The notes below the pieces were generated by a model, which saw only the letters and a program-made list of their open reading frames with translations, was not told the DNA's origin and searched no databases. DNA of 64,000 nucleotides from Caulobacter soli (lineage in GTDB: Bacteria > Pseudomonadota > Alphaproteobacteria > Caulobacterales > Caulobacteraceae), in contig NZ_CP049199.1 of assembly GCF_011045195.1 (NCBI RefSeq), positions 496,001 to 560,000 of the forward strand. Reading direction: 5' to 3'. Below are positions 47,693-62,374 of the stretch, one piece after another (the stretch's first letter is position 1; every line of letters begins with the position of its first letter). Both the position numbers and the translations under genes were made by a program.

Positions 47693-47752
47693 ATTTAGGA
47701 TGCAAAACTGAGAGGGTGATCTCCGAAGGGTGACGTCATGGGCGTATTCCAA

Positions 47753-47792: not shown

Positions 47793-48590
47793 ATGCGGCT
47801 TCTACCCATGGGCTCCCTGCTCGCCTTCCTGCCGCTGCTCGCCACGCCCGCCGTGGCCAGGGAAGAGGAGCGCGCCTGGTCGGGGAACATCGCCGTCGGG
47901 GCTGGCATGCGGCCGGACTATCTCGGCTCAGACGACCTGGAGGCCACGCCCTATGTCGCCGGCCGCATCAACTACGGTAAGTTCTATCTCGACTTCCAGG
48001 GCGAGCAGGTCCGCCTCAACGTCTCGCCGTTCGAGGGCCTGGCCTTCGGCCCGATGATCGACGTCGAGAACAAGCGTGACGACGGGGTGAAGAGCCCGCT
48101 GGTGGCCAAGCTGCCGCAAATCGACGACGCGCTGGAGGCCGGCGGCTTCGTGGCCTATTCGCGCCGCGCGATCTTCTCCGACCGTGACGAACTGACGGTC
48201 ATGGCCAACTACCTGGCTGACACGTCCGACACCTTCGACGGCGGGGTAGGGGCGGTCAGCATCAGCTATGGACGTCGCCTGAACGGGCGCTGGTCGGTCG
48301 GCGGCTCGGCCAAGCTCGACATCGTCGACAAGAAATACGCCCAGACCTATTTCGGCGTCACCTCGTCCCAGTCGGCGGTCAGCGGCCTGCCAGCCTATGA
48401 CCTGAAGGGGGGAGTGCGCGACGTCGCCCTGAGCGTGAAGGTCGGCTACGCCTTGAGCGACCATTGGAACCTGCAGGTCCTGGGCGGCTACAAGCGCCTG
48501 ACCGGCGACTTCGCCGACAGTCCGCTGGTCAAGGGGGAGGGCAGCGCCGACCAGTTCAGCGCCGCCATCGCCATCGGCTATCGCTTCTAG
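47793..48590 (+). CDS. MipA/OmpV-family outer-membrane protein
   Basis: A 265-residue protein with a signal peptide (GSLLAFLPLLATPAVA) and a beta-barrel rich in alternating aromatic and polar residues: GNIAVGAGMRPDYLGSDD, GFVAYSRRAIFSDRDELTV, SYGRRLNGRWSVGGSAKLD and the terminal AAIAIGYRF with C-terminal Phe. This is the MipA/OmpV pattern. GGAG (TAGGAGATATCG) precedes the ATG. It probably acts as a porin or scaffold, and a role in tartrate entry is only suggested by position. Confidence 0.88.
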   Translation: MRLLPMGSLLAFLPLLATPAVAREEERAWSGNIAVGAGMRPDYLGSDDLEATPYVAGRINYGKFYLDFQGEQVRLNVSPFEGLAFGPMIDVENKRDDGVKSPLVAKLPQIDDALEAGGFVAYSRRAIFSDRDELTVMANYLADTSDTFDGGVGAVSISYGRRLNGRWSVGGSAKLDIVDKKYAQTYFGVTSSQSAVSGLPAYDLKGGVRDVALSVKVGYALSDHWNLQVLGGYKRLTGDFADSPLVKGEGSADQFSAAIAIGYRF

Positions 48591-48707: not shown

Positions 48708-50870
48708 TCAGTGCTTCCAGTTCAACGTCACGCCGAAGGTGCGCGGCGGATTATAGGCTCCGAAATTGGCGCCCAGGAAGACGGCCTGGTAGGTGCGGGT
48801 GACCTCGTTGGAGAGGTTCTTGCCCCACAGCGAGACCGACCAGTGGTCGCTGGGCGCGGTGTAGACCGCCCGGGCGTCGTAGAAGTTGGTCGGGTCGCGG
48901 CGCTCGGGACCCGTGTTGGAATTGTCATCGAAGATCATGCTCTCGTAGTGATAGTCGACGGCGAAGCGGATATTCCCGCCCCGGGCCAGCGCCAGGTCAT
49001 AGGATGGCGACAGAACCAGCTTGTGCTTGGGCGTGCGCGAGATGCGGTTGCCGGCGTAGTCGATTCCCGGCTCGGGCGAGAACTCGTCGAACTTGGCGCT
49101 GGTATAGCCATAGGCCGCCACCAGACGCGCGCCGCCGAACGGGCGCCAGGCCAGGTAGGTCTCGTAACCCTTGATCGTCGCCTTGCCGGCGTTGTCGGTG
49201 ACAACCGACAGGTCGGGCAGGGTGCGGCGGGTCTGCAGGTCGCTGTACTTCATGACGTAGACGGTGTTGTTCCAGACCAGCGTTCCGTCCAGGAACGTGC
49301 TCTTCTGGCCGACTTCGTACTGGGTGGCGTACTCGGGCTGGAAGCCGTCCGCGGCGTCCGCCGCATTGCCGGGCGTGTCCTGGAAGCCGCCGCTCTTGAA
49401 GCCGCGCGAGGCCATGGCGTAGACCAGATGGCGCTCGGCCGGCTTGAAGTTGACGCCGGCGCGCCAGGTCCAAGCCTTGTAGGTGTCCGATACCGAGACG
49501 GCGAAACGCTCATCGCCACGGAAGATCGAGTCGCCGTCCAGATTGTCGACGCGATAGTCCTTTTCGTCTTTCGAATAGCGCAGGCCGCCGATCAGCGAGA
49601 CGCGGTCATTGACTGGAACCGTCACGTCGCCGAAGGCCGCGTAGCTCTTCAGGCCCGCCGACTGGGTGTAGATTTCCGTTCCCGCGCCGCCGATGTCGAG
49701 CACCAGGGTGTCCAGGCGATCGGTGTCGCTGCGGAAGGTGTAGAGGCCAGCCACCCACTGCACCGGACTGCTGGGCAGCGACGAAAGGCGCAATTCGTGG
49801 CTGGAGAAGTCGGTCTTCTCGTCGTTGCCGCCCGAAATGCCGATGAAGTTGGTGGTGGGGTTGCCGCCATCGAAGTCGTAGGCGGCGTGATAGTCCAGGT
49901 CGCGGTACGAGCCCAGATAGGTCAGGACGCCGAACGACAGGTCCCAGTCGGCCTGCAGGCGCACGCCCCAGGTGTCCTTGTTCTGGTAACCGTCGTCGGA
50001 CCCGGCGGTGTGCTTACGATCGCGGTCTACGGTCCAGAACGCCGACATCGGGTCGGTCTCGTCCAGATCCAGGACGTGCTGGGCCGGGCCGGTCTCGCGG
50101 CTGCGCGTGCCGTCCACGGTGGCCAGCACGCGTATACGCTCGGTGGGTTCCACACGCAGGGCCAGGCGACCGCTGCGGGTGTCCTGGTCCTCGACGTCGT
50201 CGCCGGTGAAGGTGTTCTTCACGTAGCCGTCGTGGGTGCGCCAACTGGCGCTAGCCCGAACGGCGGCCTTGCCGTCGGCGAACGGGGCGTTGATCACGCC
50301 GGCGCCTTCCAGGCGGCTGTAGTTGCCGGCCGTCACCTCGGCGGCGGCGTCGAAGCCGTCGAGATCGGGCTTGTGCGAGACCACGTTGATGGCGCCGCCC
50401 ACGACGTTGCGCCCGTAGAGCGTGCCTTGGGGACCCTTCAGCACCTCGATGCGCTCGACGTCGAAGGCGTCGAAGGCCACGGCCGCCGGACGGCCCAGAT
50501 AGATTTCATCCAGGAAAACGGCCGAGCTGGGATCGCCGGCCGCGCCACGGTCGGACGAACCGATGCCGCGGATCGAGATGCGCGGCTGCGAGGCGGGAAA
50601 GGCGTCGAACTGCAGTCCTGGCGTCAGGCCGGCGACATCGTCGATCTGGCGGATGCGCGCCTGCTGCACCTGGTCGGCGCCGAAAGCGGTCACCGTCACG
50701 GGCACGTCCTGAAGGCTTTCGTTGCGCCGCTGGGCGGTGACGACGACTTCCTCGATCTGGACCGCCTCGGGGGCCGAGGCCGCCGGTGTGGTTTGAGCCA
50801 ACGCCGGCGCGGCGCCCAGAAGCGCCATCAGCGCTGGTCCATAGGTCAAGGCTTTGCGGCTGACCGCCAT
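48708..50870 (-). CDS. TonB-dependent outer-membrane receptor
   Basis: A 720-residue receptor. Signal peptide (MALLGAAPALAQ), TonB box region EEVVVTAQRR, plug domain with RISIRGIGSSDRG and VERIEVLKGPQGTLYGRNVVGGAINVVS, and a 22-strand barrel ending FGVTLNWKH. It would import a large or chelated ligand across the outer membrane. No STN domain, so no sigma-signalling arm. The promoter at 50939-50987 carries the 22-bp-phased ATCCA sites. Position beside ttuDC, GntR and CitMHS suggests a hydroxycarboxylate or its metal complex as ligand. Confidence 0.95.
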   Translation of the reverse strand: MAVSRKALTYGPALMALLGAAPALAQTTPAASAPEAVQIEEVVVTAQRRNESLQDVPVTVTAFGADQVQQARIRQIDDVAGLTPGLQFDAFPASQPRISIRGIGSSDRGAAGDPSSAVFLDEIYLGRPAAVAFDAFDVERIEVLKGPQGTLYGRNVVGGAINVVSHKPDLDGFDAAAEVTAGNYSRLEGAGVINAPFADGKAAVRASASWRTHDGYVKNTFTGDDVEDQDTRSGRLALRVEPTERIRVLATVDGTRSRETGPAQHVLDLDETDPMSAFWTVDRDRKHTAGSDDGYQNKDTWGVRLQADWDLSFGVLTYLGSYRDLDYHAAYDFDGGNPTTNFIGISGGNDEKTDFSSHELRLSSLPSSPVQWVAGLYTFRSDTDRLDTLVLDIGGAGTEIYTQSAGLKSYAAFGDVTVPVNDRVSLIGGLRYSKDEKDYRVDNLDGDSIFRGDERFAVSVSDTYKAWTWRAGVNFKPAERHLVYAMASRGFKSGGFQDTPGNAADAADGFQPEYATQYEVGQKSTFLDGTLVWNNTVYVMKYSDLQTRRTLPDLSVVTDNAGKATIKGYETYLAWRPFGGARLVAAYGYTSAKFDEFSPEPGIDYAGNRISRTPKHKLVLSPSYDLALARGGNIRFAVDYHYESMIFDDNSNTGPERRDPTNFYDARAVYTAPSDHWSVSLWGKNLSNEVTRTYQAVFLGANFGAYNPPRTFGVTLNWKH

Positions 50871-50938
50871 GTTTCAACTCCCCATTTTCGTTCTTGCGGC
50901 GGCGGTCTAGCCGCGCCGTTGACGAAACTTAGGTGAGT

Positions 50939-50987
50939 TGGATCACATCAGTCAATAAACTGGATGCAATTGATCTATGAACTGGAT
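50939..50987 (-). promoter_or_regulatory. Promoter with three GGAT/ATCC sites at 22-bp spacing
   Basis: TGGAT occurs at 50939, 50961 and 50983, exactly 22 bp apart, so on one face of the helix. On the minus strand the core is ATCCAGTTTATTGAC, with TTGACT as a plausible -35. It lies 69 bp before the receptor start. The same architecture occurs at 53539 and 61622. The rest of 50871-51022 shows nothing else. Confidence 0.65.
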
Positions 50988-51022
50988 GCCGATATGACGG
51001 ACCAAAGGGGAGGATCTCGCCG

Positions 51023-51790
51023 TCACCGTCGAATGGCGGCCGCGTGCAAACGGGTCCTGGTAGCAAGAACGTGGTCCGACATGAGACGTCCCGCCTCCAA
51101 ACTGTCCTCGGCTCGGATCGCGGCCAGGATCTTCTCGTGATCGTCCTGGGACTGGAGGATGTGATCGGGCGGCGTGACCGGCACCTGGCGAAGGCGCGGC
51201 GGGACGCACACGGCCACGGTCGGGCAAAGACGCGCGGCGTCCCCGAACAGCGGGTAGACCAACGTCATGCGGATGGCGTTGCGCAGCACGGTGTTCTGCG
51301 CCGCGTGCAGGATCTGGGCGTGGAACTGGCGGTTGATCGTGTACCATTCCAGCTCGATCGCCTCGGACCAGCGACCGGCGTCGGTCACCGCACGGCCGGC
51401 GGCGCTCAGGCGCGACAGGTTGCCAAGGGCCTCCTTGGACCATCCCAGATCCACCGAGGTGCGGGCTCCCAGACCTTCCAGCGCTGCGCGGGTGTCGATC
51501 GAATCGAAGATATCGCCCAGCGACATGGCGCGTACGGTGTAGCCGCGATTGACGCTGTAGCTGACCAGTCCCTCGGCCGAGAGCACCGCCAGGGCGCTGC
51601 GGATCGGGGTGCGCGAGACATTCATCTCGGTCGCCAGGGCTTCGGCCCGCAACCGGGCGTCGGGGGCGATCTCGCCAGTCACGATCCGCTCGCGCAGACG
51701 GGTCAGCACCGTGTGGGTCGCGGGCTCGGTGTGGGGCGTGTCCAGCCCAACCGCATCGTGACCCTGTTCCTCAACCGTCGCCGCCGTCAT
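51023..51790 (-). CDS. GntR-family (FadR-type) transcriptional regulator
   Basis: A 255-residue regulator. A winged helix (LTRLRERIVTGEIAPDARLRAEALATEMNVSRTPIRSALAVLSAEGLVSY) precedes an FCD ligand-binding domain (DIFDSIDTRAALEGLGARTS to DHEKILAAIRAEDSLEAGRLMSDHV). FCD regulators commonly sense small organic acids. It lies between the TonB receptor and the divergent CitMHS gene, and is the nearest candidate for the TGGATCCA-type sites. The ATG at 51790 is chosen, as the domain begins about 25 residues in. Confidence 0.93.
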   Translation of the reverse strand: MTAATVEEQGHDAVGLDTPHTEPATHTVLTRLRERIVTGEIAPDARLRAEALATEMNVSRTPIRSALAVLSAEGLVSYSVNRGYTVRAMSLGDIFDSIDTRAALEGLGARTSVDLGWSKEALGNLSRLSAAGRAVTDAGRWSEAIELEWYTINRQFHAQILHAAQNTVLRNAIRMTLVYPLFGDAARLCPTVAVCVPPRLRQVPVTPPDHILQSQDDHEKILAAIRAEDSLEAGRLMSDHVLATRTRLHAAAIRR

Positions 51791-51939
51791 GTCCGTCCTC
51801 TGATCGAAGTGCGCGCGCTCTGCGGCGGGCGCCCTTCTCCTTACACCGCTCGCGCCAGGACCGCGCAAGTCACTCCATGCAACCGCCATATCCGAGCTTG
51901 CACGCCCGGTCGGCCCTTCCTGATCTCGGAGACCGCCTC

Positions 51940-53277
51940 GTGATCGACGTTCTGAGCCAGCCCGCCGTTCTCGGCCTGTTGATGGTCGTGACCTTCATGA
52001 CGCTGATCATGACCAAGCGGATGTCGGCGATCGCGGCCCTGCTGATCGTGCCCATCGCCTTTGGCCTGCTGGCGGGGGCGGGGCCCAGGTTGGGTCAGAT
52101 GATCCTGGACGGCGTCCTGCAGGTGGCGCCCACCACCCTGATGCTGTCGTTCGCGGTGCTCTATTTCGCGGTGATGATGGATGCGGGCCTGTTCGAACCT
52201 CTGGTGCGCAAGGTCCTGTCGATCGTCGGCGACGATCCCCTGAAGATCAGCCTTGGCACGGCGATCCTCGCCACGGTGGTGTCGCTGGACGGGGACGGCA
52301 CGACCACGGCCCTGATCGTCATCACCGCCTTCCTGCCGGTCTATCGGCGCGTGGGCATGAATCCGCTGATCCTGGCCACCCTGCTGGGGCTGGCCAATTC
52401 GCTGATGAACTACGTGCCGTGGGGTGGGCCGGCGGCGCGGGCGGCGGCGGCCACCCACGTGGACCTGGCGCAGGTGGTCGGACCGATCCTGCCCGCCGCG
52501 GCGGTCGGCCTGCTGGGCGTCTTCGGCCTGGCCTGGCTGTTCGGTCGCTCGGAGCGCAGGCGGCTGGCCGGACGCGCGACCGCGGTCGACGTCGTCAATG
52601 ACGGGTTCGCCCCGATCCCGGCCACGACCGACGACGAGGCGGCGCGCGCCTTCCGGCGACCCAAGCTTTTCTGGTTCAACCTGGTTCTGACCCTGGTGCT
52701 GATCCTGGGCATGGTCTCGGGGCTGGCGCCGCTGCCCGTGCTGATGATGTCGGCCTTCGCCATTGCCATCACCGTCAACTATCCGTCCCTGAAGGATCAG
52801 AAGGCGCGGCTGGCGGCCCACGCCGACAACGTGGTCAACATCGTGGTGCTGCTGTTCGCCGCCGGGGCCTTCACGGGCATCCTCAACGGCGCGGGCATGG
52901 CCGACGCCATGGCCAAGTCGGCCTTGTCGATCATCCCGCCGCAGGTGGGGCCCTACCTGGCTCCGATCACCGCCCTGGTCAGCATGCCCCTGACCTTCGT
53001 GATGTCCAACGACGCCTACTATTTCGGCGTGGTGCCGGTGGTGGCCCAGGCGGCGGCGGGCTTCGGCATCGAGCCAGCGGCCATCGCCCGCGCGTCGCTG
53101 ATCGGTCAGCCGGTCCATTCGCTCAGCCCGCTGCTGGCGCCGATCTACCTGGCCTGCGGGCTGCTGGGCGTGGATGTCGCCGACGCCCAGCGCTTCAGCC
53201 TGAAGTGGGCGGTGCTGATCTGCCTGGTGGTCCTGGCCTCGGCTCTGGCCATGGGGGCGATCCCGCTCCGCGCCTGA
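51940..53277 (+). CDS. CitMHS-family citrate/hydroxycarboxylate transporter
   Basis: A 445-residue inner-membrane transporter of about 12 helices. Characteristic segments: SLDGDGTTTALIVITAF, LLGLANSLMNYVPWGGPAARAAAA, VVNIVVLLFAAGAFTGILNGAGMADAMA and MSNDAYYFGVVPVV. CitMHS members take up citrate with a divalent metal and a proton. GTG at 51940 with GGAGA upstream is the preferred start; the ATG at 51877 would add 21 unlikely residues. It is divergent from the GntR gene. The tartrate genes nearby make tartrate or a similar diacid a reasonable substrate. Confidence 0.9.
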   Translation: MIDVLSQPAVLGLLMVVTFMTLIMTKRMSAIAALLIVPIAFGLLAGAGPRLGQMILDGVLQVAPTTLMLSFAVLYFAVMMDAGLFEPLVRKVLSIVGDDPLKISLGTAILATVVSLDGDGTTTALIVITAFLPVYRRVGMNPLILATLLGLANSLMNYVPWGGPAARAAAATHVDLAQVVGPILPAAAVGLLGVFGLAWLFGRSERRRLAGRATAVDVVNDGFAPIPATTDDEAARAFRRPKLFWFNLVLTLVLILGMVSGLAPLPVLMMSAFAIAITVNYPSLKDQKARLAAHADNVVNIVVLLFAAGAFTGILNGAGMADAMAKSALSIIPPQVGPYLAPITALVSMPLTFVMSNDAYYFGVVPVVAQAAAGFGIEPAAIARASLIGQPVHSLSPLLAPIYLACGLLGVDVADAQRFSLKWAVLICLVVLASALAMGAIPLRA

Positions 53278-53520
53278 CCGACACGGCCTGTCGAGAGACA
53301 TTTTGAAAGCGCGCCGCAGGATCTCGATCGGCGCGCTGGGCGGCCGCCTGGGCGTGAGGCCGCGCGCCCTGCGTGGCGCGCGGCTGCGTCGTTGCGGGCG
53401 TCGCGATCGGTTCGTCTGGAACAAGGCGCTGAATAACTTCGGCGGAGCGGCGACGAACCCAACTCCATCAATACGCGCCAGCCCAGTAGGGGCGCCGCGC
53501 CACCCCCGCATCGCCATTCG

Positions 53521-53565
53521 ATCCAATTTCCAAATTGGATCCAATTTATTGACATAATGCATCCC
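53521..53565 (+). promoter_or_regulatory. Operator/promoter of the AtuA operon
   Basis: ATCCAATTT and AAATTGGAT form a perfect inverted repeat with a two-base spacer (53521-53540), overlapping the palindrome AATTGGATCCAATT. ATCCAATTTATTGAC starts at 53539, and ATCC recurs exactly 22 bp on at 53561. TTGACA is a good -35. It matches the receptor promoter at 50.9 kb. The remainder of 53278-53623 is Arg-codon-rich open sequence without a credible gene. Confidence 0.7.
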
Positions 53566-53623
53566 AAGTTTTAGATGCATGGGGAAGCGGTCGACAAGGC
53601 CGCGCCCTCTGTGGTGGAAGCGC

Positions 53624-55009
53624 ATGTTGCCAGGTCCGATCAAAATCATTGTACCGTGCGGTTCGCTCGGCGCGGGTGTCCATGAGGACGAGGTTCGCCG
53701 GGGAGTGGAGATGGGCGCGCACGCCATCGCCACCGACGCGGGCTCCACCGACAGCGGCGCGGCCTACCTGGCGCTCGGCATGTCGAAGAACAATCGCTCG
53801 TCGGTGAAGCGCGACCTGGCGATCCTGATGAAGGCTGGGGCCGAGGCGGGCATTCCCGTCATCGTCGGCACCAGCGGCCAGGCTGGCGGCGACAAGAACG
53901 TCGACTGGACGCGCGACATCGCCCTCGAAATCGCCGCGGAGCACGGCCTCAACCCCAAGATCGCGCTGCTCTACTCCGAGGTGGACAAGGCCTCGCTGAA
54001 GGTTCGCAATGCGGCCGGCCAGGTTAAGCCGCTGGCTCCGTTGGGCGCCCTGGACGACGCCACCATCGACTCCTGTGACCACATCGTCGCGGTGCTGGGC
54101 GCCGAGCCCTATGTGTCGGCCCTTGAGGCCGGCGCCGACCTGATCCTGGGCGGCCGAACCACCGACACCGCCGTGCTGTCCAGCTTCGCCCTGCTGAAGG
54201 GCGCCCCATGGGGCCCGGCCTGGCACGCCGCCAAGATCGCCGAATGCGGCAGCCAGTGCGCGGTCTACCGGACCAAGGGCGCGGGCGTCATGATCAGCAT
54301 CGACAACGACGGCTTCGAAGTGGAGACCCTGAGCCTGGAGAACCGCTGCGACCCGCACAGCGTCTCGGCGCATATGCTCTACGAGAACTCCAATCCGTTC
54401 CGCCTGACCGAACCCGGTGGCGTGTTGGATGTGACCCAGGCTCGCTACGTGGCGCTGGACGAGCGCCGGGTGGGCGTAACCGGGTCGGTCTGGGAAAAGA
54501 CGCCCTACACCGTGAAGCTGGAAGGCGCCGGGGCCGGCGGCTACCAGACCATCATGCTGGTGGGCATCCAGGACCCCGAGGTCTTGTCGCGGCTGGACGA
54601 ATTTCACGATAAGATGCTGGCCGCCCTGAGGCATCGGGTGGACACCACCATCGGTGCGGCGGCTGGCGACTATCACATCTCGCTGCGCCTCTACGGCTGG
54701 AACGCCGTGTCCGGGGACAAGCCGTCCGAGGGCACGCCGGCTCCGCGCGAGGTGGGTGTGCTGTTCGTCGCCACCGCCGCGACCCAGGATATGGCCAGCC
54801 AGATCGCCAAGGCCTGCAACGCCTGGTTCTTCCACTTCCCAATCGTCGAGGACGAGGAGTTGCCCAGCTACGGCTTCGCCTTCACGCCCGCCGATATCGA
54901 GCGCGGCGCCGTCTATGAGTTCAAGCTGAATCACGTGGTCGAGCTGGACGACCCCATGGAGTTGGTCCGCACCACCTGGATCGACCTGAAAAAGAAGGAA
55001 GCGGCGTGA
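53624..55009 (+). CDS. AtuA-family protein (DUF1446)
   Basis: A 461-residue cytoplasmic protein with the DUF1446 signature near the start: VPCGSLGAGVHEDEVRRG, ATDAGSTDSGAAYLALG, then GIPVIVGTSGQAGGD and DLILGGRTTDTAVLSSFALL. The named member, AtuA, belongs to acyclic terpene degradation, but its reaction is not established, and no other atu genes are here. ATG 53624 with GGAAG upstream is preferred over 53579. It is followed by the DUF4387 gene with overlap, a standing pair in other genomes. Confidence 0.9.
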   Translation: MLPGPIKIIVPCGSLGAGVHEDEVRRGVEMGAHAIATDAGSTDSGAAYLALGMSKNNRSSVKRDLAILMKAGAEAGIPVIVGTSGQAGGDKNVDWTRDIALEIAAEHGLNPKIALLYSEVDKASLKVRNAAGQVKPLAPLGALDDATIDSCDHIVAVLGAEPYVSALEAGADLILGGRTTDTAVLSSFALLKGAPWGPAWHAAKIAECGSQCAVYRTKGAGVMISIDNDGFEVETLSLENRCDPHSVSAHMLYENSNPFRLTEPGGVLDVTQARYVALDERRVGVTGSVWEKTPYTVKLEGAGAGGYQTIMLVGIQDPEVLSRLDEFHDKMLAALRHRVDTTIGAAAGDYHISLRLYGWNAVSGDKPSEGTPAPREVGVLFVATAATQDMASQIAKACNAWFFHFPIVEDEELPSYGFAFTPADIERGAVYEFKLNHVVELDDPMELVRTTWIDLKKKEAA

Positions 55010-55317
55010 TGACGACCGTCAAGGATGTCTGCCGCCACGTGCGGTCCAAGAACGCGGGCCCCTACTGGGTGACGTTCGACCTGTTCTTCGACGGGCCGGA
55101 CAGCTTCGAGAAGCATCACGCCAACCCGGCTCTGGGCCCGCAACTGTTCCAGCGGCTGTTCGGCGCCGACCCGGCGCTGGTGAGGCACTATCCGGTGGCT
55201 GACCTCAACGTGGTCAAGATCTCGTACGCCCGCACCTCGCCCCAGGGCGGGGTCGTCGAGCGCGACATGCACTGCGGCCAGCAGTTCGTGCGCCTGCTCG
55301 ACGTGCAGCTCGACTAG
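55009..55317 (+). CDS. DUF4387 protein (AtuA partner)
   Basis: A 102-residue protein: VKDVCRHVRSKNAGPYWVTFDLFFDGPDSFEKHH, then LGPQLFQRLFGAD and VKISYARTSPQGGVVERDMHCGQQF. It belongs to DUF4387, repeatedly encoded after DUF1446 and sometimes fused to it, which suggests that the two form one enzyme. The ATG touches the last base of the AtuA stop (TGATG). The chemistry is unknown. Confidence 0.88.
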   Translation: MTTVKDVCRHVRSKNAGPYWVTFDLFFDGPDSFEKHHANPALGPQLFQRLFGADPALVRHYPVADLNVVKISYARTSPQGGVVERDMHCGQQFVRLLDVQLD

Positions 55318-55376
55318 CGATCGCCCAGGCCGGGCGGTTGTGACCGCGGCCGCCCTTCGTCTCGCCAGGACGTTTC

Positions 55377-55817
55377 ATGCTCCCTAACTCCCGAGCGCCG
55401 CGCGGGGCGCTCCAGGCGCCCCCGGGGCCGCTGACCGACTATCCGGTGACGGTCCGGGTCGAGGACATCGACCACATGGGGCACGTCAATAACGCCGTCT
55501 ATCTTCAGTGGGTGCAGTCGGCGGTGGTCCGCCACTGGGAGCGGATCGCCGACGCCGAGGCCGTGGCGCGTCACCTGTGGGTGGCGCTCAAGCACGAGAT
55601 TACCTACCGCAGTCCCGCCTTCCTGACCGACACGATCGTGGCCACCACGGGCATCGAGCGGGCGGCGGGCGCCAAGGCCCAGTTCCAGACCCTGATCCGT
55701 CGCGGCGACCATCTGCTGGCCGAGGTCAACAGCTTGTGGTGCTGCATCGACCACCAGAGTCATCGGCCGGTGCGCCTGCCCAAGCCCACCCTGGCCCGCT
55801 TCGTCGCGTCGGCCTGA
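55377..55817 (+). CDS. Acyl-CoA thioesterase, 4HBT hotdog fold
   Basis: A 146-residue hotdog protein: YPVTVRVEDIDHMGHVNNAVYLQWVQSAVVRHW carries the catalytic-type Asp of the 4HBT family. The rest (ALKHEITYRSPAFLTDTIVATTGIERA) is standard. It probably hydrolyses a CoA thioester made in the operon. It lies 59 bp after the DUF4387 gene and 12 bp before the TerC-like gene, so all are likely co-transcribed. This hints that the AtuA substrate passes through a CoA ester. Confidence 0.9.
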   Translation: MLPNSRAPRGALQAPPGPLTDYPVTVRVEDIDHMGHVNNAVYLQWVQSAVVRHWERIADAEAVARHLWVALKHEITYRSPAFLTDTIVATTGIERAAGAKAQFQTLIRRGDHLLAEVNSLWCCIDHQSHRPVRLPKPTLARFVASA

Positions 55818-55829
55818 GAGTTCGCCGCC

Positions 55830-56510
55830 ATGACTTCGACTCTGATCGGCGAGATGGGACCGTCCCTGGCCGCCTTCGCACAGGTGCTGATGATCGATCT
55901 GGTCCTGGCGGGCGACAACGCCGTTGCCGTGGGACTGGCGGCGGGCGGCCTTCCGACCGAGCAGCGCCGCAAGGTCATCGTCTGCGGCCTGGCCGCCGCC
56001 GTCGTGCTGCGGATCGGCTTCGCTTTGGTCACGACCTGGCTGCTCGGCGTGGTGGGCCTGCTGCTGGCGGGAGGGCTTCTGCTGCTATGGGTATGCTGGA
56101 AGATGTGGCGTGATCTGCGAGCCGCCGAGGCGAACGAGGCCGGCCATGTCGCTGGCCCCGCCAAGACCTTCGGCTCGGCCTTTCTGCAGGTGCTGGTTGC
56201 CGATGTCTCCATGTCGCTGGACAACGTGCTGGCCGTGGCGGGGGCGGCGCGTGAGCATCCGGGCGTGCTGGTGGCGGGTCTCCTGCTGTCGATCATCCTG
56301 ATGGGCCTGGCCGCCAATGCGATCGCCGCCCTGCTGCGCCGCTATCGCTGGATCGGCTATGCGGGCCTGGCCATCGTGCTCTACGTGGCCGGCCACATGA
56401 TCTGGCAGGGCTATCGCGACGTCGCCGTCGACCTGGGCTGGACCTCGACCTACGACCGCCTGACGCCCCAGCCGCTCCACATCGGGGCGTCGGGACACGT
56501 GGGGAGATGA
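55830..56510 (+). CDS. TerC/YjbE-family membrane protein
   Basis: A 226-residue protein of seven hydrophobic segments with two metal-like motifs in TerC style: LMIDLVLAGDNAVAVGLAA near residue 20 and VADVSMSLDNVLAVAGAA near 130. TerC proteins are linked to manganese or metal export and to metallating exported proteins. Its stop overlaps the start of the next gene. In this context it may manage a metal that enters with a hydroxycarboxylate. Confidence 0.92.
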   Translation: MTSTLIGEMGPSLAAFAQVLMIDLVLAGDNAVAVGLAAGGLPTEQRRKVIVCGLAAAVVLRIGFALVTTWLLGVVGLLLAGGLLLLWVCWKMWRDLRAAEANEAGHVAGPAKTFGSAFLQVLVADVSMSLDNVLAVAGAAREHPGVLVAGLLLSIILMGLAANAIAALLRRYRWIGYAGLAIVLYVAGHMIWQGYRDVAVDLGWTSTYDRLTPQPLHIGASGHVGR

Positions 56511-57577
56511 ACCCGCACGAGATTCTCCGACGCCCTTGGGCGCAGTGGATGCTGCTGATCGCCGCCACCGTGGCGGCCGATACGGTGCTGACCCTGCTCC
56601 ACGCGCCCGCGGCCCTGCTGTTGGGCCCCCTGGTGATGGCCATCGGCTTCGGCGTGGCCGGAGCGACCCTGCGGCCGCCTGGGCCGCTGCGCCTGACCAG
56701 TTCGACCCTGATTGGCTGCCTTGTGGCCACCGCCCTGGGACCCGCGCTGGGACCGGACCTGCTGGGCCACCTGCCAACCTTCCTGCTGATCGCCGTCTCC
56801 ACCCTGGCCATGAGTCTGGGCCTGGGATGGCTGCTGGCCCGCCTCGGCTGGTTCGAGGGAGCGACGGCGGTGTGGGGGCTGTCGCCGGGCGGGGCGGCCA
56901 GCATGATCGCCCTGGCCCAGGAGATGGGCGCCGACGCCCGCACCGTGGCCCTGATGCAGTACTTCCGGGTGCTGCTGGTGGCGGCCGCCGCCATAGGCCT
57001 CGCCCATGTGGCCGCGCCGGGCATGCACGCCGGCCCGGGCAAGGCCTGGCTGGGTCCGGTCCACCTGTCGGGCCTGGCCGCGACGGCGCTGCTGGGCTTG
57101 GTTGGGGCGGGACTGTCTCGCGTGCTGAAGTTCCCGGCCGGCATCTTCCTGATCCCCGGTCTTTCGGGCGCGGTGCTGATGCGGCTGGGCTGGCTGCACC
57201 CCGAGGTGCCGCCGATCCTGGGGGCCATGGCCTATGCGGTGGTCGGGTGGACGATCGGGCTCAGCTTCACGCCCGCGACCCTGGCCCACAGCGCCCGCGC
57301 CCTGCCCAGGATCATCGCCTCGACCCTGATCCTGATCGCCCTGTGCGGCTTGTCAGGCCTGGTGATCGGGCTGACCTGCGGCGTCGATCCGCTGACCGGC
57401 TATCTGTCGACCAGCCCTGGCGGCGTCGATTCCATCCTGATCATCGCCGCCTCCACGCCGGTGGACTTGCCGTTCATCCTGTCGGCTCAGGTCGTGCGGG
57501 TGATCCTGGTGCTGATCGCCGGGCCGTGGGCCGCCGGTCAGGTCGCCCGCTGGACCCAGGCGAAGGAAGAACCCTAG
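56507..57577 (+). CDS. AbrB/PF05145-family membrane protein
   Basis: A 356-residue protein of about ten helices in two similar halves: RLTSSTLIGCLVATALGPAL and WGLSPGGAASMIALAQEMGADARTVALMQYFRV in the first, and GYLSTSPGGVDSILIIAASTPVDLPFILSAQVVRVILVL in the second. This is PF05145, sometimes annotated as AbrB or as a putative ammonia monooxygenase without proof; a transport role is more likely. Its stop shares bases with the convergent receptor's stop. Confidence 0.88.
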   Translation: MNPHEILRRPWAQWMLLIAATVAADTVLTLLHAPAALLLGPLVMAIGFGVAGATLRPPGPLRLTSSTLIGCLVATALGPALGPDLLGHLPTFLLIAVSTLAMSLGLGWLLARLGWFEGATAVWGLSPGGAASMIALAQEMGADARTVALMQYFRVLLVAAAAIGLAHVAAPGMHAGPGKAWLGPVHLSGLAATALLGLVGAGLSRVLKFPAGIFLIPGLSGAVLMRLGWLHPEVPPILGAMAYAVVGWTIGLSFTPATLAHSARALPRIIASTLILIALCGLSGLVIGLTCGVDPLTGYLSTSPGGVDSILIIAASTPVDLPFILSAQVVRVILVLIAGPWAAGQVARWTQAKEEP

Positions 57578-60009
57578 AATCGCGCCGACAGCCGCAAGCC
57601 CAGGGTCCTGGGTCGCAGCGGCGTCATCTCGGCGTCGGTGGGCGGATTGAAGGGATTGCCGAAGGCGAAGCTGTCGGCGGTTCGGTCGAACAGGTTGTCG
57701 ACATAGACGCCCAGGGTCCAGCGCGGGGTCTCCAGCGAAAGGCTTGCCGAGCCCTCGATATAGTCCGGCGCGGCTTCCGCCGGCTCGGGGGCGAGGCTCA
57801 GCCGTGCATGGCCGACATAGCGTAGCCGGCCTTGGGCGCGAAGGGTCCGCTCACCATTCAACGGTTGGCGAAAGTCGAAGCCGAAGCTGGCCGAGACGCC
57901 GTTGATTCCCGCCAGGGCGACGCCCGCGCCATCGAGCGCGGGATCCTGTCGCTTCAGGCTGGGATCGCTCAACAGCGCCGCGCCACGCAGGTCCAGACGC
58001 GGGCTCGCGCGCCAGACCGCCTCCAGTTCCAGCCCGCGGTTGTGGCCCGCGCCGATATTGGCCGTGTAGGGCAGGCCGTCGGCCCGGTACTGGTCGCTCT
58101 GGATCGAGGTCCAGTCGGCCTGGAACAGCGCCGCGCGCAACTGCAGGCGATCGTCCAGCCAGCGGACCTTGGCGCCGACCTCGTAGTTCCACAGCTCGTC
58201 CGGGCGATAGCGCCGGGTTGGCGCGCCGGGTTGGTCGAAATCCAAATCCAGGCGGCCGGCCGTGTTGAACCCGCCGGCGCGGTAGCCCTCGGCGACCTGG
58301 ACGTAGACCAGCCAGTCGGAGGACGCGGAGACGCTGAGCAGCAGCTTGGGCGACAGGCCGTTCTCGTCGTTCTTGCCGGCGACGTCGCGCGTTTCGTCGT
58401 CCTGGGTCACTTGGGAGACGACGTCGAGGCCGTAGTCGAACCAGCGCAGCCCGGCCGTCAGCGACAGGTGCGGAGTCAGGGCGTAGGTCAACTCGCCATA
58501 GAGGGCGGCTTCCCGAATGTTGTCGTCCCGCGCCTCGGCATAGGCGACCGCGCCCAGCGGCGCATCCGGGCCGTCCACGGAGCCCAGGGCCGTGGCGGTG
58601 CGGGCGTGGCCCGTCGACACGAAGGCGCCGGCCAGTCCCGTCACCCGTCCGCCCTGTGGCGTGGCGTAGGTGATCTCGGCGACGGTCAGGTTCGTGCGCT
58701 TGGTCTCGTCGAACGCCGCGGCGCCTTCGGCAAGACCGTAAAGTCCAGTCGCCGCGCTGGCGTCGAAGCGGCTAGTGAAGTGATGGCCCAGGCGGGAGGC
58801 GCTGGCGGTCAGCCGGCCCCAAGATCCTTCCCCCGCCAGGGTCAGCGAGCCCTGGTCGAAGCTGTTGTCATGCGGCTCTCGCACCCGGTTGTCGCGCAGT
58901 AGCGGGCCCAGGCGTCGCAGGCTGTACTGGGTGTCGTCGTTGTGGATCGACTGGTGGGTCAGCACCATGTTGGCGCTCCAGTCGGGTCCCAGGGCGGTGC
59001 GCAGGGCCAGGCGGCCGCCGTGACGGTCAGCATGGTTGACGCCGTCCAGGCCCAGGGCGGGATTGTCGATATAGCCGCCCTGGCGCTCGCGATAGACGAC
59101 GGCGCGCAGAGCCGCCTTGCCGGAAATGAGCGGGATGTTGGCGGTCGCCTCGAGTTCGTCGCCCGGGCCGCCGCCGCGGGTGTTCGACAGTCCCGCCATC
59201 AGGTCCACCGAGGTCTCGTCAAGGTCGGGCTTGCGGGTGACGATCCGCACCACGCCGCCGATCGAGCCGCCGCCGTAGAGCGTGCCCTGGGGGCCGCGCA
59301 GCACCTCGACCCGCTCGATATCGGCCAGGCGCAGATCGGGATCGGGGGCGTTGTAGGTGACGGGGACCTCGTCCAGGTAAAGCGAGACGATCGACTGGGT
59401 TTGACCAGTGAAGGCGCCGTCCGAAAGGCCCCGCAGCAGGACTTTGTCGCGGCCGGGTCCCAGGTGGGTCGTGCTCATGCCCGCCACCTCGCCGTCCAGG
59501 TCGCCAAGACTATAGATGCGCTCGCGGCGGGCCTGTTCACTGGAAACGACCGAGAGGGCGAAGGGCGTGCGGCCGGGCAGGTTGGGCTGACGTTGGGCGG
59601 TGACGATCACCTCGCCCAGGGCCGATGGCGGCGCCTCGGAGGTGGCCGGCGATGGTCCGGGAGGAGCCGGCTTCGCTGGCGTCCGCCGGATCAGGATCGT
59701 CTCCGCGTCGATCCGAGTCCAGGCGCACCGAGAACCCGCCAGGATCCTGTCCAGCGCTTCGTCCAGGTCCATGACGCCCGACAGGCGAGGGGCTTGGCCG
59801 CGACAGGCTTCCAGATCACCGCCCAGCGAAATGCCGGCCTGCAGAGCGAGGTCCAACAGGGCGGCGCGGACCGGCTTGGCGGGGAGGTTCAGGCGGATCC
59901 GGCCTGGGGCGGCGACCGCTTCGCCAGGCGTGGCGGCAAAGGCGGCAAAGCCCAGGACGACCGCCGCGCGCCAGATTCGGTCAGCGCGCTTCAAGGACGA
60001 CTTCATCAC
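57574..60009 (-). CDS. TonB-dependent receptor with STN signalling domain (FecA type)
   Basis: An 811-residue transducer. After the signal peptide, the STN domain (residues about 35-110: IRLNLPAKPVRAALLDLALQAGISLG and LSGVMDLDEALDRILAGS) contacts the anti-sigma factor. The plug has EVIVTAQRQ, DKVLLRGLSDG and VEVLRGPQGTLYGGGSIGGVVRIVT, and the barrel ends LGLRLSARF. Its start overlaps the fecR stop by 29 bp. Together with the sigma and FecR genes it would sense its own ligand outside the cell. Confidence 0.95.
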   Translation of the reverse strand: MMKSSLKRADRIWRAAVVLGFAAFAATPGEAVAAPGRIRLNLPAKPVRAALLDLALQAGISLGGDLEACRGQAPRLSGVMDLDEALDRILAGSRCAWTRIDAETILIRRTPAKPAPPGPSPATSEAPPSALGEVIVTAQRQPNLPGRTPFALSVVSSEQARRERIYSLGDLDGEVAGMSTTHLGPGRDKVLLRGLSDGAFTGQTQSIVSLYLDEVPVTYNAPDPDLRLADIERVEVLRGPQGTLYGGGSIGGVVRIVTRKPDLDETSVDLMAGLSNTRGGGPGDELEATANIPLISGKAALRAVVYRERQGGYIDNPALGLDGVNHADRHGGRLALRTALGPDWSANMVLTHQSIHNDDTQYSLRRLGPLLRDNRVREPHDNSFDQGSLTLAGEGSWGRLTASASRLGHHFTSRFDASAATGLYGLAEGAAAFDETKRTNLTVAEITYATPQGGRVTGLAGAFVSTGHARTATALGSVDGPDAPLGAVAYAEARDDNIREAALYGELTYALTPHLSLTAGLRWFDYGLDVVSQVTQDDETRDVAGKNDENGLSPKLLLSVSASSDWLVYVQVAEGYRAGGFNTAGRLDLDFDQPGAPTRRYRPDELWNYEVGAKVRWLDDRLQLRAALFQADWTSIQSDQYRADGLPYTANIGAGHNRGLELEAVWRASPRLDLRGAALLSDPSLKRQDPALDGAGVALAGINGVSASFGFDFRQPLNGERTLRAQGRLRYVGHARLSLAPEPAEAAPDYIEGSASLSLETPRWTLGVYVDNLFDRTADSFAFGNPFNPPTDAEMTPLRPRTLGLRLSARF

Positions 60010-60937
60010 GGGTGAAGCGGGCCCGGATCGGAATGAAGGCTTCCAGCCGGCGGATCATCGTCGGCTGGTCGTCCTGCCTGAGCACGCCGCTCACCCGGAT
60101 CGAGATCGCGCTGGAAGCCACCCGCACCTTCAAGGGCCCATAGCGGCTGAGATCGGCCGCCACCTCGGCCAGGGGGGTGTCATCGTAGTAGAGTCGGCCT
60201 TGCGTCCAGCCGAAGGCCCGGTCGGGATCGGTCGCGCGGACGGCCTGGTCGGTGGCCCCTTCCTGGTGCGACAGCTCCTGGCCCTCACCCAGACGCACCG
60301 TGCGGCCGTCGCGGGGATCGCTGACAGCCACAAGGCCGCGGCGGACGGTGACCATCAGGCGGCCGGCGCGACGGACAATGTCGAATTCGGTGCCGACCAC
60401 CCGCACGCGCCGATCGCCGACGGTTACCTCGAACGGACGGTCGGACAGGTGAGCCACGTCGAACGTCGAGGCGCCGTCGACCAGTTCGACCTCGCGCAGG
60501 CGCGGCGCCAGGCGCACGCGCACGGTCGTGGCCGGACCAAGAACCAGCCGCGAGCCGTCTTCCAGCGCGACCGTGCGAAGCTGGCCGGGCGGCGTGGCGT
60601 ATTCCCGCCAGGGTTCGGCGGGCGAACGGGCAACCAGCACGGCCAGCACCACGGCGGCCGCGGCGGCCAGGCCGCCGATCGACCAGACGAACGCTGAGCG
60701 CCGGATGGGAGGTCGAGCCGGTCGGCGGGGGAAAGGGGTGACGACAGGCGCGCCGGCCGCTGGCGCCTCCAGGTCTTCCCAGAAGGCCTCGACCGCGTCA
60801 TAGGCGGCTCTATGGTCGAGCGAGGCGTCCAGCCAGGCGGTGAAGGCCCGCCAGTCGGCGACGTCCATCTCGCCGCGCACCCGGATGCACCAGGCGACGG
60901 CCTCCTGCTCCACGGCGTTGTCTGGCGACCCGGTCAT
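59981..60937 (-). CDS. FecR-family anti-sigma regulator
   Basis: A 318-residue single-span protein. The cytoplasmic N-terminus has AVAWCIRVRGEMDVADWRAFTAWLDASLDHRAAYD. A membrane helix lies near 90-110 (IGGLAAAAAVVLAVLVA). The periplasmic FecR domain has GQLRTVALEDGSRLVLGPATTVRV and VRVVGTEFDIVRR. It relays ligand binding by the receptor to the sigma factor. It lies between the two on one transcript. Confidence 0.94.
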   Translation of the reverse strand: MTGSPDNAVEQEAVAWCIRVRGEMDVADWRAFTAWLDASLDHRAAYDAVEAFWEDLEAPAAGAPVVTPFPRRPARPPIRRSAFVWSIGGLAAAAAVVLAVLVARSPAEPWREYATPPGQLRTVALEDGSRLVLGPATTVRVRLAPRLREVELVDGASTFDVAHLSDRPFEVTVGDRRVRVVGTEFDIVRRAGRLMVTVRRGLVAVSDPRDGRTVRLGEGQELSHQEGATDQAVRATDPDRAFGWTQGRLYYDDTPLAEVAADLSRYGPLKVRVASSAISIRVSGVLRQDDQPTMIRRLEAFIPIRARFTRDEVVLEAR

Positions 60938-61019
60938 GCGCGCTCACCCGAGGTCCGACGCCGGCAGGACGGCCGGCTCGGCCACAATGACGCCGCCGAT
61001 GGGCGCATACCCCCCGCGG

Positions 61020-61574
61020 TCATCGTCCCACCTTCGCGTACAGATGGGCCAGGGCCGCGCTCATGTGCTTTTCGACCGTCTTCAGCGACAGGCCCAGCCG
61101 CTGGGCGGTCTGGGCGTAGGTCAGGCCCTCGAACTTGTGCAGGCGGAAGATCCCCTGGGTGCGGGAAGGCAGGGCCAGCAGGGCCTCAGACAGTCGCTCC
61201 AGCCGCTGGCGGGCGATCAGGGTGGTTTCGGCGTCGGGATCCTCGACCATCTCGACGCGCCCGATCACCGTCGTGCTGGTCCGCCGCCAGGCGTCGTCCC
61301 GCGCCCGGTTCCGGCGGCCGCGCCGAAGCCAGTCCAGCATGTGGTTGTGTGCCAGGCGATAGAGGAAGGCGGCGGGATTGCGCACGTCCTGGCCCTCCAG
61401 GTTCCGGATCTTGACGTAGAGATCCTGGACCAGGTCCTCGACGTCGGCTTGGGGCCCCAGGCGCGCCCTATAGAAGCCGCGCAGTTCGTTCTGCCGCGCC
61501 AGATAGGTCTCCAGCACGAGGGCGGAGGCCGGTGAGGGGCTAGCGGGCGGGGGCTTTTCGTCGGTTGGGGACAA
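61020..61574 (-). CDS. ECF sigma factor, FecI type
   Basis: About 184 residues from the TTG at 61574. Region 2 is YLARQNELRGFYRARLGPQADVEDLVQDLYVKIRNL and AAFLYRLAHNHMLDWLRR. Region 4 is LPSRTQGIFRLHKFEGLTYAQTAQRLGLSLKTVEKHMSAAL. The longer open frame to 61709 reads straight through the phased operator sites, so it cannot all be coding; a shorter start is expected. GTG at 61517 is another option. It heads the sigma-FecR-receptor operon. Confidence 0.92.
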   Translation of the reverse strand: MSPTDEKPPPASPSPASALVLETYLARQNELRGFYRARLGPQADVEDLVQDLYVKIRNLEGQDVRNPAAFLYRLAHNHMLDWLRRGRRNRARDDAWRRTSTTVIGRVEMVEDPDAETTLIARQRLERLSEALLALPSRTQGIFRLHKFEGLTYAQTAQRLGLSLKTVEKHMSAALAHLYAKVGR

Positions 61575-61621
61575 GTCTTGCGCACGATGTCGGGCCGCGC
61601 CCGGATGCGCGTTTTGCCTCA

Positions 61622-61670
61622 AGGATGCGTTTGGATCAAAAATTGGATCCAAAATGAGGCGATTGTGGAT
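61622..61670 (-). promoter_or_regulatory. Promoter of the sigma factor operon with three 22-bp-phased GGAT sites
   Basis: GGAT elements begin their pentamers at 61622 (AGGAT), 61644 and 61666 (TGGAT), 22 bp apart, with TGGATCCA at 61644-61651 and an additional TGGAT at 61632. On the minus strand ATCCAATTTTTGATCC aligns with the receptor and AtuA promoters. It lies between the Crp/Fnr stop and the sigma start, 48 bp from the latter. Confidence 0.68.
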
Positions 61671-61681
61671 GTCGCCATGCC

Positions 61682-62374
61682 CTAACGCCCAAATGCCTCC
61701 GGATTGCACAGCCGCGACAGGCGGGCCGGGTCGAGTATGGCGATGCTGGCGTAACCCAAGGCGACGACGCCGGCTTCCTCCAGTCTGCGCAGGCCACGGT
61801 TCAGAGTCTGGCGGCTGACCCCGACGACGGACGCCAGCTCGGCCTGGCGGATGGACAGGGGGCTAGGAGAGCCGGCTTCGTCCGCCGCCTTGGCCAGGGC
61901 GCGGGCCAGGCGCACCGCCACCGGTTGGGCGGCGCGCTGCTCGATAAAGGCCAGGGCCGTGCGCTGGTTGGCGCAGACCAGCAGGCCCAGATCGCGATAG
62001 AAAGCGCCGTCTTGCACGCCCAGTCGCGCTACCGAGGCCGGCGACAGATGGAGCACGCTGGCCGACCCGAAGGCCACGGCGTCGTGGGGGCGCGGCCCGC
62101 CGTCCAGGGTCGAGAGCTCGCCGAACCAGACGCCGGGCCCCAGGATCCGCACCAGGATCTCCATGCCGCTGGCCGGATAGCCGATCAGCCGCACCTGGCC
62201 CTCGAGCACCGCCCAAAGGCCGTTGGGCGGATCGCCGGCGCCATAGAGGCGCGCGCCATCCGGAACCGCCGAGACGCTGGCCTCGCCGAGAATCAACTCG
62301 CGGCGCTCGACGGGGAGGGCGGCGAACCAGTCTCCGGCCTCAAGGGTGCGGCGGTCGTCGGCGGTGGGACGCAC
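61682..62374 (-). CDS. Crp/Fnr-family transcriptional regulator
   Basis: A 230-residue regulator. An N-terminal cyclic-nucleotide-type beta-roll (ARLYGAGDPPNGLWAVLEGQVRL and VWFGELSTLDGGPRPHDAVAFGSASVLHL) and a C-terminal HTH (QAELASVVGVSRQTLNRGLRRLEEAGVVALGYASIAILDPARL). No N-terminal Fe-S Cys set, so not an FNR oxygen sensor. The ligand is unknown. A 22-bp perfect palindrome lies just upstream and may be its own operator. It is divergent from the aldolase-family gene. Confidence 0.93.
   Translation of the reverse strand: MRPTADDRRTLEAGDWFAALPVERRELILGEASVSAVPDGARLYGAGDPPNGLWAVLEGQVRLIGYPASGMEILVRILGPGVWFGELSTLDGGPRPHDAVAFGSASVLHLSPASVARLGVQDGAFYRDLGLLVCANQRTALAFIEQRAAQPVAVRLARALAKAADEAGSPSPLSIRQAELASVVGVSRQTLNRGLRRLEEAGVVALGYASIAILDPARLSRLCNPEAFGR

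Follow-up and report, generated by a model that had tools for sequence, protein, structure and literature searches.

Putative VanR-type operators link a GntR/FCD regulator to TonB receptor and AtuA/DUF4387 genes in Caulobacter soli

The window analysed here is a stretch of 64,000 nucleotides from Caulobacter soli (contig NZ_CP049199.1, positions 496,001 to 560,000), and positions are counted from its first letter. Copies of a short palindrome, TTGNATNCAA, are found in the window before the gene of a TonB-dependent receptor (TonB1), before an operon encoding an AtuA-family protein and a DUF4387 protein, and before the gene of a FecI-type sigma factor. It is highly probable that these sites are the operators of the GntR/FCD protein encoded at 51023–51790, a relative of VanR, which would jointly control TonB1 and AtuA/DUF4387 by repression. 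The architecture of the sites, their conservation and their co-occurrence with the GntR gene are read directly from the DNA. A preliminary description of the window had proposed a single regulator for the TonB receptor and AtuA/DUF4387, with this GntR protein as the nearest candidate. The proposal is supported by the conservation of the sites, by their co-occurrence with the GntR gene and by sites ahead of the GntR operon in some relatives.

The preliminary description had placed pentamers before the TonB receptor gene (TGGAT at 50939, 50961 and 50983), the AtuA operon (ATCCA at 53539, ATCCC at 53561) and the sigma gene (AGGAT at 61622, TGGAT at 61644 and 61666). These coordinates are right, and each of the 22-base-pair (bp) steps between them was confirmed. 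Further copies are present at AtuA (ATCCA at 53521, TGGAT at 53536) and at the sigma gene (TGGAT at 61632, ATCCA at 61647). The ATCC repeats are real, but their unit is the palindrome TTGNATNCAA, which has the form of a repressor dimer site, and not only a direct repeat of pentamers. Its versions in the window are AATTGGATCCAATTT at AtuA, TTTTGGATCCAATTT before the sigma gene and AATTGCATCCAGTTT at TonB1, and the perfect palindrome TTGGATCCAA is shared by AtuA and the sigma gene (Table 1). At TonB1 and AtuA, a TTGAC lies 5 bp past the inner eight bases of the palindrome, TGNATNCA; we designate this copy O2. A second, often weaker copy (O3) follows 22 bp downstream, between the -35 and the -10, and TonB1 has a third, upstream half-site (O1). 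The genome has two exact copies of the core ATCCANTTTNTTGA, one at each of the TonB and AtuA promoters, and each is followed by TTGAC, as had been claimed. The distance of 48–69 bp to the start codon, also given for all three sites, is true only if AtuA starts at ATG 53624 and the sigma gene at TTG 61574, which is a putative assignment. The AtuA start is consistent with the relatives, which align from that residue, the query itself having begun there.

Same-strand pairs of ATCCA at a distance of 22 bp occur three times in the window, and all other distances from 15 to 39 bp give none or one. Bare ATCC pairs were rejected as the unit, since 24 bp (seven pairs) is as common a distance in the window as 22 bp (six pairs), and it is the palindrome that carries the signal. 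The palindrome TTGGATCCAA is present at three places in the genome, two of them in the window, and its backward control at one. The third place was dropped as a target because it lies inside an open reading frame (ORF) of 291 amino acids. The composite ATCCARTTTNTTGANNNNNNNSATCC, with up to three mismatches, is found at eight places in the whole genome, and its backward control at one. The AtuA site and two TonB sites make up the three best matches, with 0, 0 and 2 mismatches. Five places have three mismatches, namely the sigma site and four others elsewhere in the genome. A matrix built from 27 sites of relatives, including the CitMHS site of locus L022 and none from the window, ranks the AtuA (52.8), TonB1 (41.6) and sigma (33.3) sites first, second and third in the window. 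The rows below repeat the same sites, read in shifted position or on the opposite strand; 8.7 is the score of the next independent place, and the reversed window does not exceed -0.4. When each locus in turn was left out of the training, its sites scored 39.3–65.2, apart from one at 8.3, in which TTGAC is spaced by 4 and not 5 bp.

A check of conservation had been proposed in the preliminary description, and the TonB1 and AtuA sites are indeed kept in relatives across genera. A homology search with AtuA yielded 80 loci (1.50 Mb) from related genomes, the counts from which are not independent. Among their genera are Caulobacter, Brevundimonas, Phenylobacterium, Niveispirillum (alphaproteobacterial), Azospirillum, Steroidobacter, Peristeroidobacter and Hydrocarboniphaga; Steroidobacter and Hydrocarboniphaga are Gammaproteobacteria, and the operator arrangement before TonB1 and AtuA reaches as far as Steroidobacter. 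A pattern taken from the window only (up to three mismatches) matched before TonB1, AtuA or CitMHS in 13 of the 42 AtuA loci scanned with it. For an alignment, 26 sites of relatives (12 at TonB1, 14 at AtuA) were chosen by the presence of O2 and TTGA, and the CitMHS site of L022 was left out. O3 and the -10 do not belong to this picking rule. O3 is nevertheless found at exactly +22 in 10 of the 12 TonB1 sites and 12 of the 14 AtuA sites, and the TonB1 promoters of the relatives share a TAnnnT -10 at a fixed place. The sequence TTGNATNCA is present in 23 of the 26 sites, and TGNATNCA in all of them by construction. Over the 80 loci, TTGNATNCA-N4-6-TTGAC has 27 matches (23 at TonB1/AtuA, one at CitMHS, three elsewhere or reversed) and a looser pattern has 37, ten of them without an assigned target gene; the reversed-pattern control gives none in either case. 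With the matrix, the maximum over these loci is 18.9 in the reversed control (1.5 Mb) and 21.9 in loci without a TonB1/AtuA site (L088). In L015 and L031 no site precedes AtuA itself; in these loci the gene is placed behind TonB1, and TonB1 has a site.

A scan of 30 genomes with the exact composite TGNATNCA-N5-TTGA-N8-ATNCA gave 24 perfect matches, one being the window's own. They lie before TonB1 (13), AtuA (10) and CitMHS (one). Every genome concerned has a close GntR, and no perfect match is found in the 12 of the 30 that lack one. When the composite is made one base shorter, a single perfect match is left in the 30 genomes, located elsewhere in a genome without a close GntR. Allowing one mismatch, the composite matches in 22 of the 30 genomes; such one-mismatch matches include 12 located elsewhere in the 18 GntR-bearing genomes, which look like chance, and five in the 12 genomes that lack a close GntR. 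With the backward control there are none in the 18 GntR-bearing genomes and six in two Colwellia genomes.

The presence of the sites coincides with that of the GntR gene. All 13 AtuA loci with a GntR gene in the examined stretch have a TonB1/AtuA site by the looser pattern, as do three of the 67 loci without one; the other 64 have neither. Sites are kept in L017, L022 and L024 while GntR is located elsewhere in the genome. A whole-genome search for GntR covered 32 of the 80 AtuA genomes, namely all 16 with sites and 16 others, and the remaining 48 have neither a TonB1/AtuA site nor GntR in the examined stretch. A close ortholog (57–68% identity) was detected in 16 of the 32, exactly the 16 with sites, and none of the 16 genomes without it has the sites. 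Two Phenylobacterium loci (L020, L053) encode a 75%-identical AtuA and have neither site nor GntR, and two Colwellia genomes have a GntR relative of 39–40% identity and no site. Among 149 genomes of the family, GntR is present in three and the site in five: all three genomes with GntR have the site, and so do two of the 146 without it. One of these two, in L097, is a vanA/GntR promoter; the other, in L095 (family genome G010), lies inside an ORF with no target genes nearby and was treated as a chance match. The segment SRTP[IV]RSAL of the recognition helix is invariant in the aligned orthologs of 17 relatives.

Matrix matches also head the gene before GntR in five relatives (L016:14599, L019:14686, L023:14493 and 14524, L025:4975, L026:14654), which are those whose GntR is not beside TonB1. 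The gene before GntR encodes a 2-hydroxyacid dehydrogenase in L016 (Pfam); in the other four it was judged by eye. The best scores ahead of the GntR operon are 34.9 in L016, 21.8 in L019, 19.7 in L023, 24.5 in L025 and 22.8 in L026, which suggests a possible autoregulation of GntR in these relatives.

Several observations weigh against the assignment of the sites to GntR. The relatedness of the genomes inflates the counts, and most genomes without sites belong to distant lineages. The later, general patterns were refined after the upstream DNA of the relatives had been viewed, so that O2 and TTGA are present in 26 of 26 sites by construction; the control patterns serve as a safeguard in this respect. 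The backward control pattern likewise matches four genomes of the family sample, and genome G123 of that sample is apparently the same as that of L021, so the two tests of co-occurrence overlap. In 385 genomes of the class the pattern is found in 54 and GntR in one, the window's own, while the backward control gives about 25 matches in 21 genomes. The pattern on its own is not specific for this GntR and is no proof of it, because so many genomes have the pattern and one has the regulator, and the class-wide scan was set aside as uninformative. No site is found among the top matrix rows in the divergent GntR/CitMHS region of the window. The scores of the sites ahead of the GntR operon in L019, L023 and L026 are close to those of the best chance matches (18.9 reversed, 21.9 in L088), and the called ORF extends over the site in L019 and L026.

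The VanR/VanO system has its origin in Caulobacter. The same operator type is met in the window as ATTGGATCCAAT at AtuA, TTGGATCCAA at the sigma gene and TTGCATCCAG at TonB1. The statement of the preliminary description that no description of such an arrangement was known does not stand as far as the operator is concerned: ATTGGATCCAAT is given in PMC7970624 as the VanR operator used in a biosensor and in synthetic biology. An example is present in the same genus at L097:1400-1560, where vanA (Pfam VanA_C) is divergent from a GntR/FCD gene and TTGGATCCAATATCTTGAC is located beside TTGAC. This promoter contains two perfect TTGGATCCAA operators, the first adjoining TTGAC. The two systems share the palindrome, the register of O2 to TTGAC, a GntR/FCD protein and neighbouring catabolic genes. 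They differ in that the window GntR is only 31% identical to the GntR of L097, controls other target genes under the proposed reading, and has operators 22 bp apart versus 41 bp in L097. The window GntR is flanked by a TonB receptor and CitMHS, and with 31% identity it is not regarded as a VanR ortholog (vanA was not sought in the window's genome). Because the operator is that of VanR and the protein is not its ortholog, the system appears to be a new regulon under a regulator of known kind, in which the operators are more tightly spaced and the set of controlled genes appears new.

The closest solved relative of the window GntR by sequence is Atu1419 of Agrobacterium fabrum (PDB 6z74, 6za0, 6za3, 6za7, 6zab), a member of the VanR group, whose effector domain is described as having six helices, versus seven in FadR (PMC7797058). 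According to the same account, G3 and C8 are indispensable in the 10-bp Atu1419 palindrome, G3 being contacted by an arginine in the recognition helix; both positions are kept in the TTGnnnnCAA of the window sites. In contrast to the window, the core of the Atu1419 operator is ATGTATACAT, its palindromes are 190 or 109 bp apart with a tetramer looping the DNA, and the pathway is another one (PMC7797058). AlkR of Pseudomonas aeruginosa is likewise presented as a VanR-group repressor with a palindromic operator kept in relatives; its operator ATTGTCAGACAAT differs in covering the -10 of an n-alkane oxidation gene (PMC12042122). A literature search gave no paper combining GntR/FCD operators with a 22-bp, helical-turn spacing, and the main text of PMC4494728 mentions neither VanR nor GGATCC.

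The place of the FecI-type sigma gene in the regulon, claimed in the preliminary description, is only partly borne out: its site stands well above background with the matrix of the relatives, but it is not conserved in them, an outcome that the preliminary description had itself listed as refuting. A FecI relative is present in 67 of the 149 family genomes, the window's own included. As the family pattern scan does not match even the window's own sigma site, the upstream regions of FecI-like genes were scanned separately. Thirty FecI-like loci were covered, one of them the window's own. Over 500 bp upstream, no comparable site was found in any of the 29 others, where the best composite score is -4.1 versus 33.3 in the window; one locus (L167) has a lone TTGGATTCAA, with a best upstream O2 score of 7.0. 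In addition, the TTGA of the sigma site is shifted out of register by one base, and its three mismatches to the first composite tie it with the four places elsewhere in the genome. These findings would fit a chance or decayed match that leaves FecI outside the regulon. This explanation is nonetheless rather unlikely, as the region contains an exact palindrome found at three places in the genome together with a second near-palindrome, and its composite score exceeds the maxima of the loci without a TonB1/AtuA site and of the reversed control. The score is intermediate between those of the background and of the training sites, and the window's genome is the only one in which the sigma target was seen.

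A possible fourth operator, TTTTGCATCCTAAAT, takes the fifth row of the O2 matrix, the two perfect palindromes taking two rows each. It lies directly after the stop codon of a gene for a tartrate-dehydrogenase-type enzyme. A MipA/OmpV-like gene is found close after DUF4387 in L014, L016, L019, L023 and L026. Because of the 23.5-scoring operator-like site and this position in five relatives, the MipA/OmpV-like gene is a plausible further target.

Activation of TonB1 and AtuA by GntR, instead of repression, is improbable. O2 is located directly upstream of the -35, and some activators bind just there. O3, however, occupies the spacer between -35 and -10, which is the position of a repressor. Atu1419 (PMC7797058) and AlkR (PMC12042122) are also described as repressors.

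It is slightly less probable still that another regulator uses the sites, for instance the Crp-type protein encoded at 61682–62374, the product of a LysR-type gene or a true VanR, and that the association with GntR reflects synteny. In favour of this, the operator is identical to that of VanR and is present, in the same genus, at a VanR-like GntR beside vanA; near AtuA in the 16 motif loci, Crp-like genes are found in five and a LysR-like gene in one. GntR, in contrast, is present in all 16 motif genomes, while Crp- and LysR-like neighbours, which were not searched genome-wide, occur in few. Three genomes keep the sites though their GntR lies outside the examined AtuA stretch, and the search of the window's own genome detected only two weak relatives of the window GntR (36% and 28% identity). 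Chance repeats in AT-rich promoter DNA, to which the equal frequency of ATCC pairs at 24 bp might point, are practically negligible as an explanation in view of the one-base-shift control, the co-occurrence and the cross-genus conservation, the last of which speaks against chance for TonB1 and AtuA.

For repression by GntR we propose the following mechanism, in which binding, repression rather than activation, the inducer and cooperativity are inferred. FCD regulators of the VanR group attach to short palindromes in dimeric form, and TTGNATNCAA would be bound by a GntR dimer in this way. At the promoters of TonB1 and AtuA, the dimer on O2 would touch the upstream edge of the -35, and that on O3 would sit two helical turns (22 bp) downstream, between the -35 and the -10, with the upstream O1 half-site added at TonB1. 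With O2 and O3 occupied on one face of the DNA, RNA polymerase would be excluded, which would fit cooperative repression. GntR would be released by an intracellular inducer, probably the substrate or a product of the citrate/tartrate/citramalate-like pathway of this locus, and outer-membrane uptake through TonB1 and the AtuA/DUF4387 enzymes would be switched on together. In the window's genome the FecI-FecR-receptor cassette, and perhaps the MipA/OmpV-like gene, may have been recruited into the same regulon. The uptake-signalling role suggested in the preliminary description is a presumed one. Tentatively, a VanR-type repressor acting through tandem operators phased by 22 bp could in this species tie outer-membrane uptake, citramalate-lyase-type catabolism and FecI-FecR signalling together, so that surface signalling would be licensed by an intracellular metabolite in the manner of a two-key switch.

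Table 1. Features of the window considered in this study
Feature	Position	Strand	Basis or remark
GntR/FCD regulator, proposed repressor	51023–51790	-	Pfam GntR and FCD; orthologs 57–71% identical
TonB-dependent receptor TonB1	48708–50870	-	Pfam; 67–76% identity in 12 relatives' loci with a site before TonB1
CitMHS transporter	51943–53277	+	NCBIfam TIGR00784, above cut-off
AtuA-family protein, related to subunit A of citramalate lyase (PDB 9erq)	53624–55009	+	
DUF4387 protein, related to subunit B of citramalate lyase (PDB 9erq chain B)	55006–55317	+	
MipA/OmpV-like outer-membrane protein, possible further target	47793–48590	+	NCBIfam OmpV match far below cut-off
Extracytoplasmic function (ECF) sigma factor, FecI type	61020–61574	-	Pfam sigma-70 regions 2 and 4; start codon uncertain
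FecR-type protein	59981–60937	-	Pfam FecR
Second TonB-dependent receptor, downstream of fecR	57574–60009	-	Pfam plug and barrel
TonB1 promoter	50926–50987	-	Kept in relatives
TonB1 O1 half-site ATCCA	50983–50987	-	
TonB1 O2 TTGCATCCAG	50960–50969	-	
TonB1 -35 TTGAC	50951–50955	-	
TonB1 O3 TGTGATCCAA	50938–50947	-	
TonB1 -10-like TAAGTT	50926–50931	-	
AtuA promoter	53521–53577	+	Upstream ATCCA at 53521
AtuA O2 TTGGATCCAA	53535–53544	+	
AtuA -35 TTGAC	53549–53553	+	
AtuA O3 ATGCATCCCA	53557–53566	+	
AtuA weak -10-like TAGATG	53572–53577	+	
Region before FecI-type sigma gene	61622–61670	-	Composite score 33.3, third in window
Sigma region, palindrome TTGGATCCAA	61643–61652		
Sigma region, near-palindrome TTTGATCCAA	61631–61640		
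Sigma region, half-sites AGGAT and TGGAT	61622 and 61666		
Possible fourth operator TTTTGCATCCTAAAT	47693–47707	-	O2 matrix 23.5 bits; 85 bp before MipA/OmpV-like ORF

The regulator belongs to the FCD subfamily of the GntR family, with PF00392 and PF07729 both above their cut-offs (Pfam). The FecI models of NCBIfam match the sigma gene only below their cut-offs. In cell-surface signalling of the FecI-FecR type, the ECF sigma factor and FecR go together with a TonB receptor that bears an N-terminal signalling (STN) domain. The second TonB-dependent receptor has an N-terminal extension in addition to plug and barrel, with no STN domain match at E 0.001 (Pfam). The tartrate-dehydrogenase-type enzyme encoded at the locus is above its NCBIfam cut-off. 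The sequence relatedness of AtuA and DUF4387 to the A and B subunits of citramalate lyase CmlAB (PDB 9erq, 9evf) offers a lead to the possible function of both families. Literature searches gave no paper on DUF4387, on DUF4387 with AtuA or on citramalate lyase with AtuA, and for citramalate lyase or cmlA nothing relevant among the matches listed. Since a tartrate-dehydrogenase-type enzyme, CitMHS and relatives of citramalate lyase A/B are encoded together at the locus, the substrate and inducer class is likely that of small hydroxy-di- or tricarboxylates or their esters.

Two side observations concern the relatives. In L027, L028 and L039, the ORF immediately before AtuA has about 235 amino acids and resembles another GntR/FCD regulator, as judged by eye; no TTGNATNCA site was found before AtuA in these loci, and a different regulator and operator may be used there. 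At L024:5935, an operator-like pair with a composite score of 37.8 lies between divergent genes for an amidohydrolase and a hydantoinase B-like protein (Pfam), possibly an extra branch of the regulon in Hydrocarboniphaga.

The recruitment of FecI-FecR, if true, would be a feature not seen at the 29 other FecI-like loci examined. The occurrence of the VanR-type operator at the window genes suggests that it may serve more than one regulator in the same bacterial family. If so, this would matter for the vanillate-inducible promoters of synthetic biology, in which crosstalk would putatively be possible. For the AtuA/DUF4387 locus, no description of whose kind was found in the literature search, the analysis provides a hypothesis on regulator, operator and inducer, and it predicts which TonB receptor would import the substrate.

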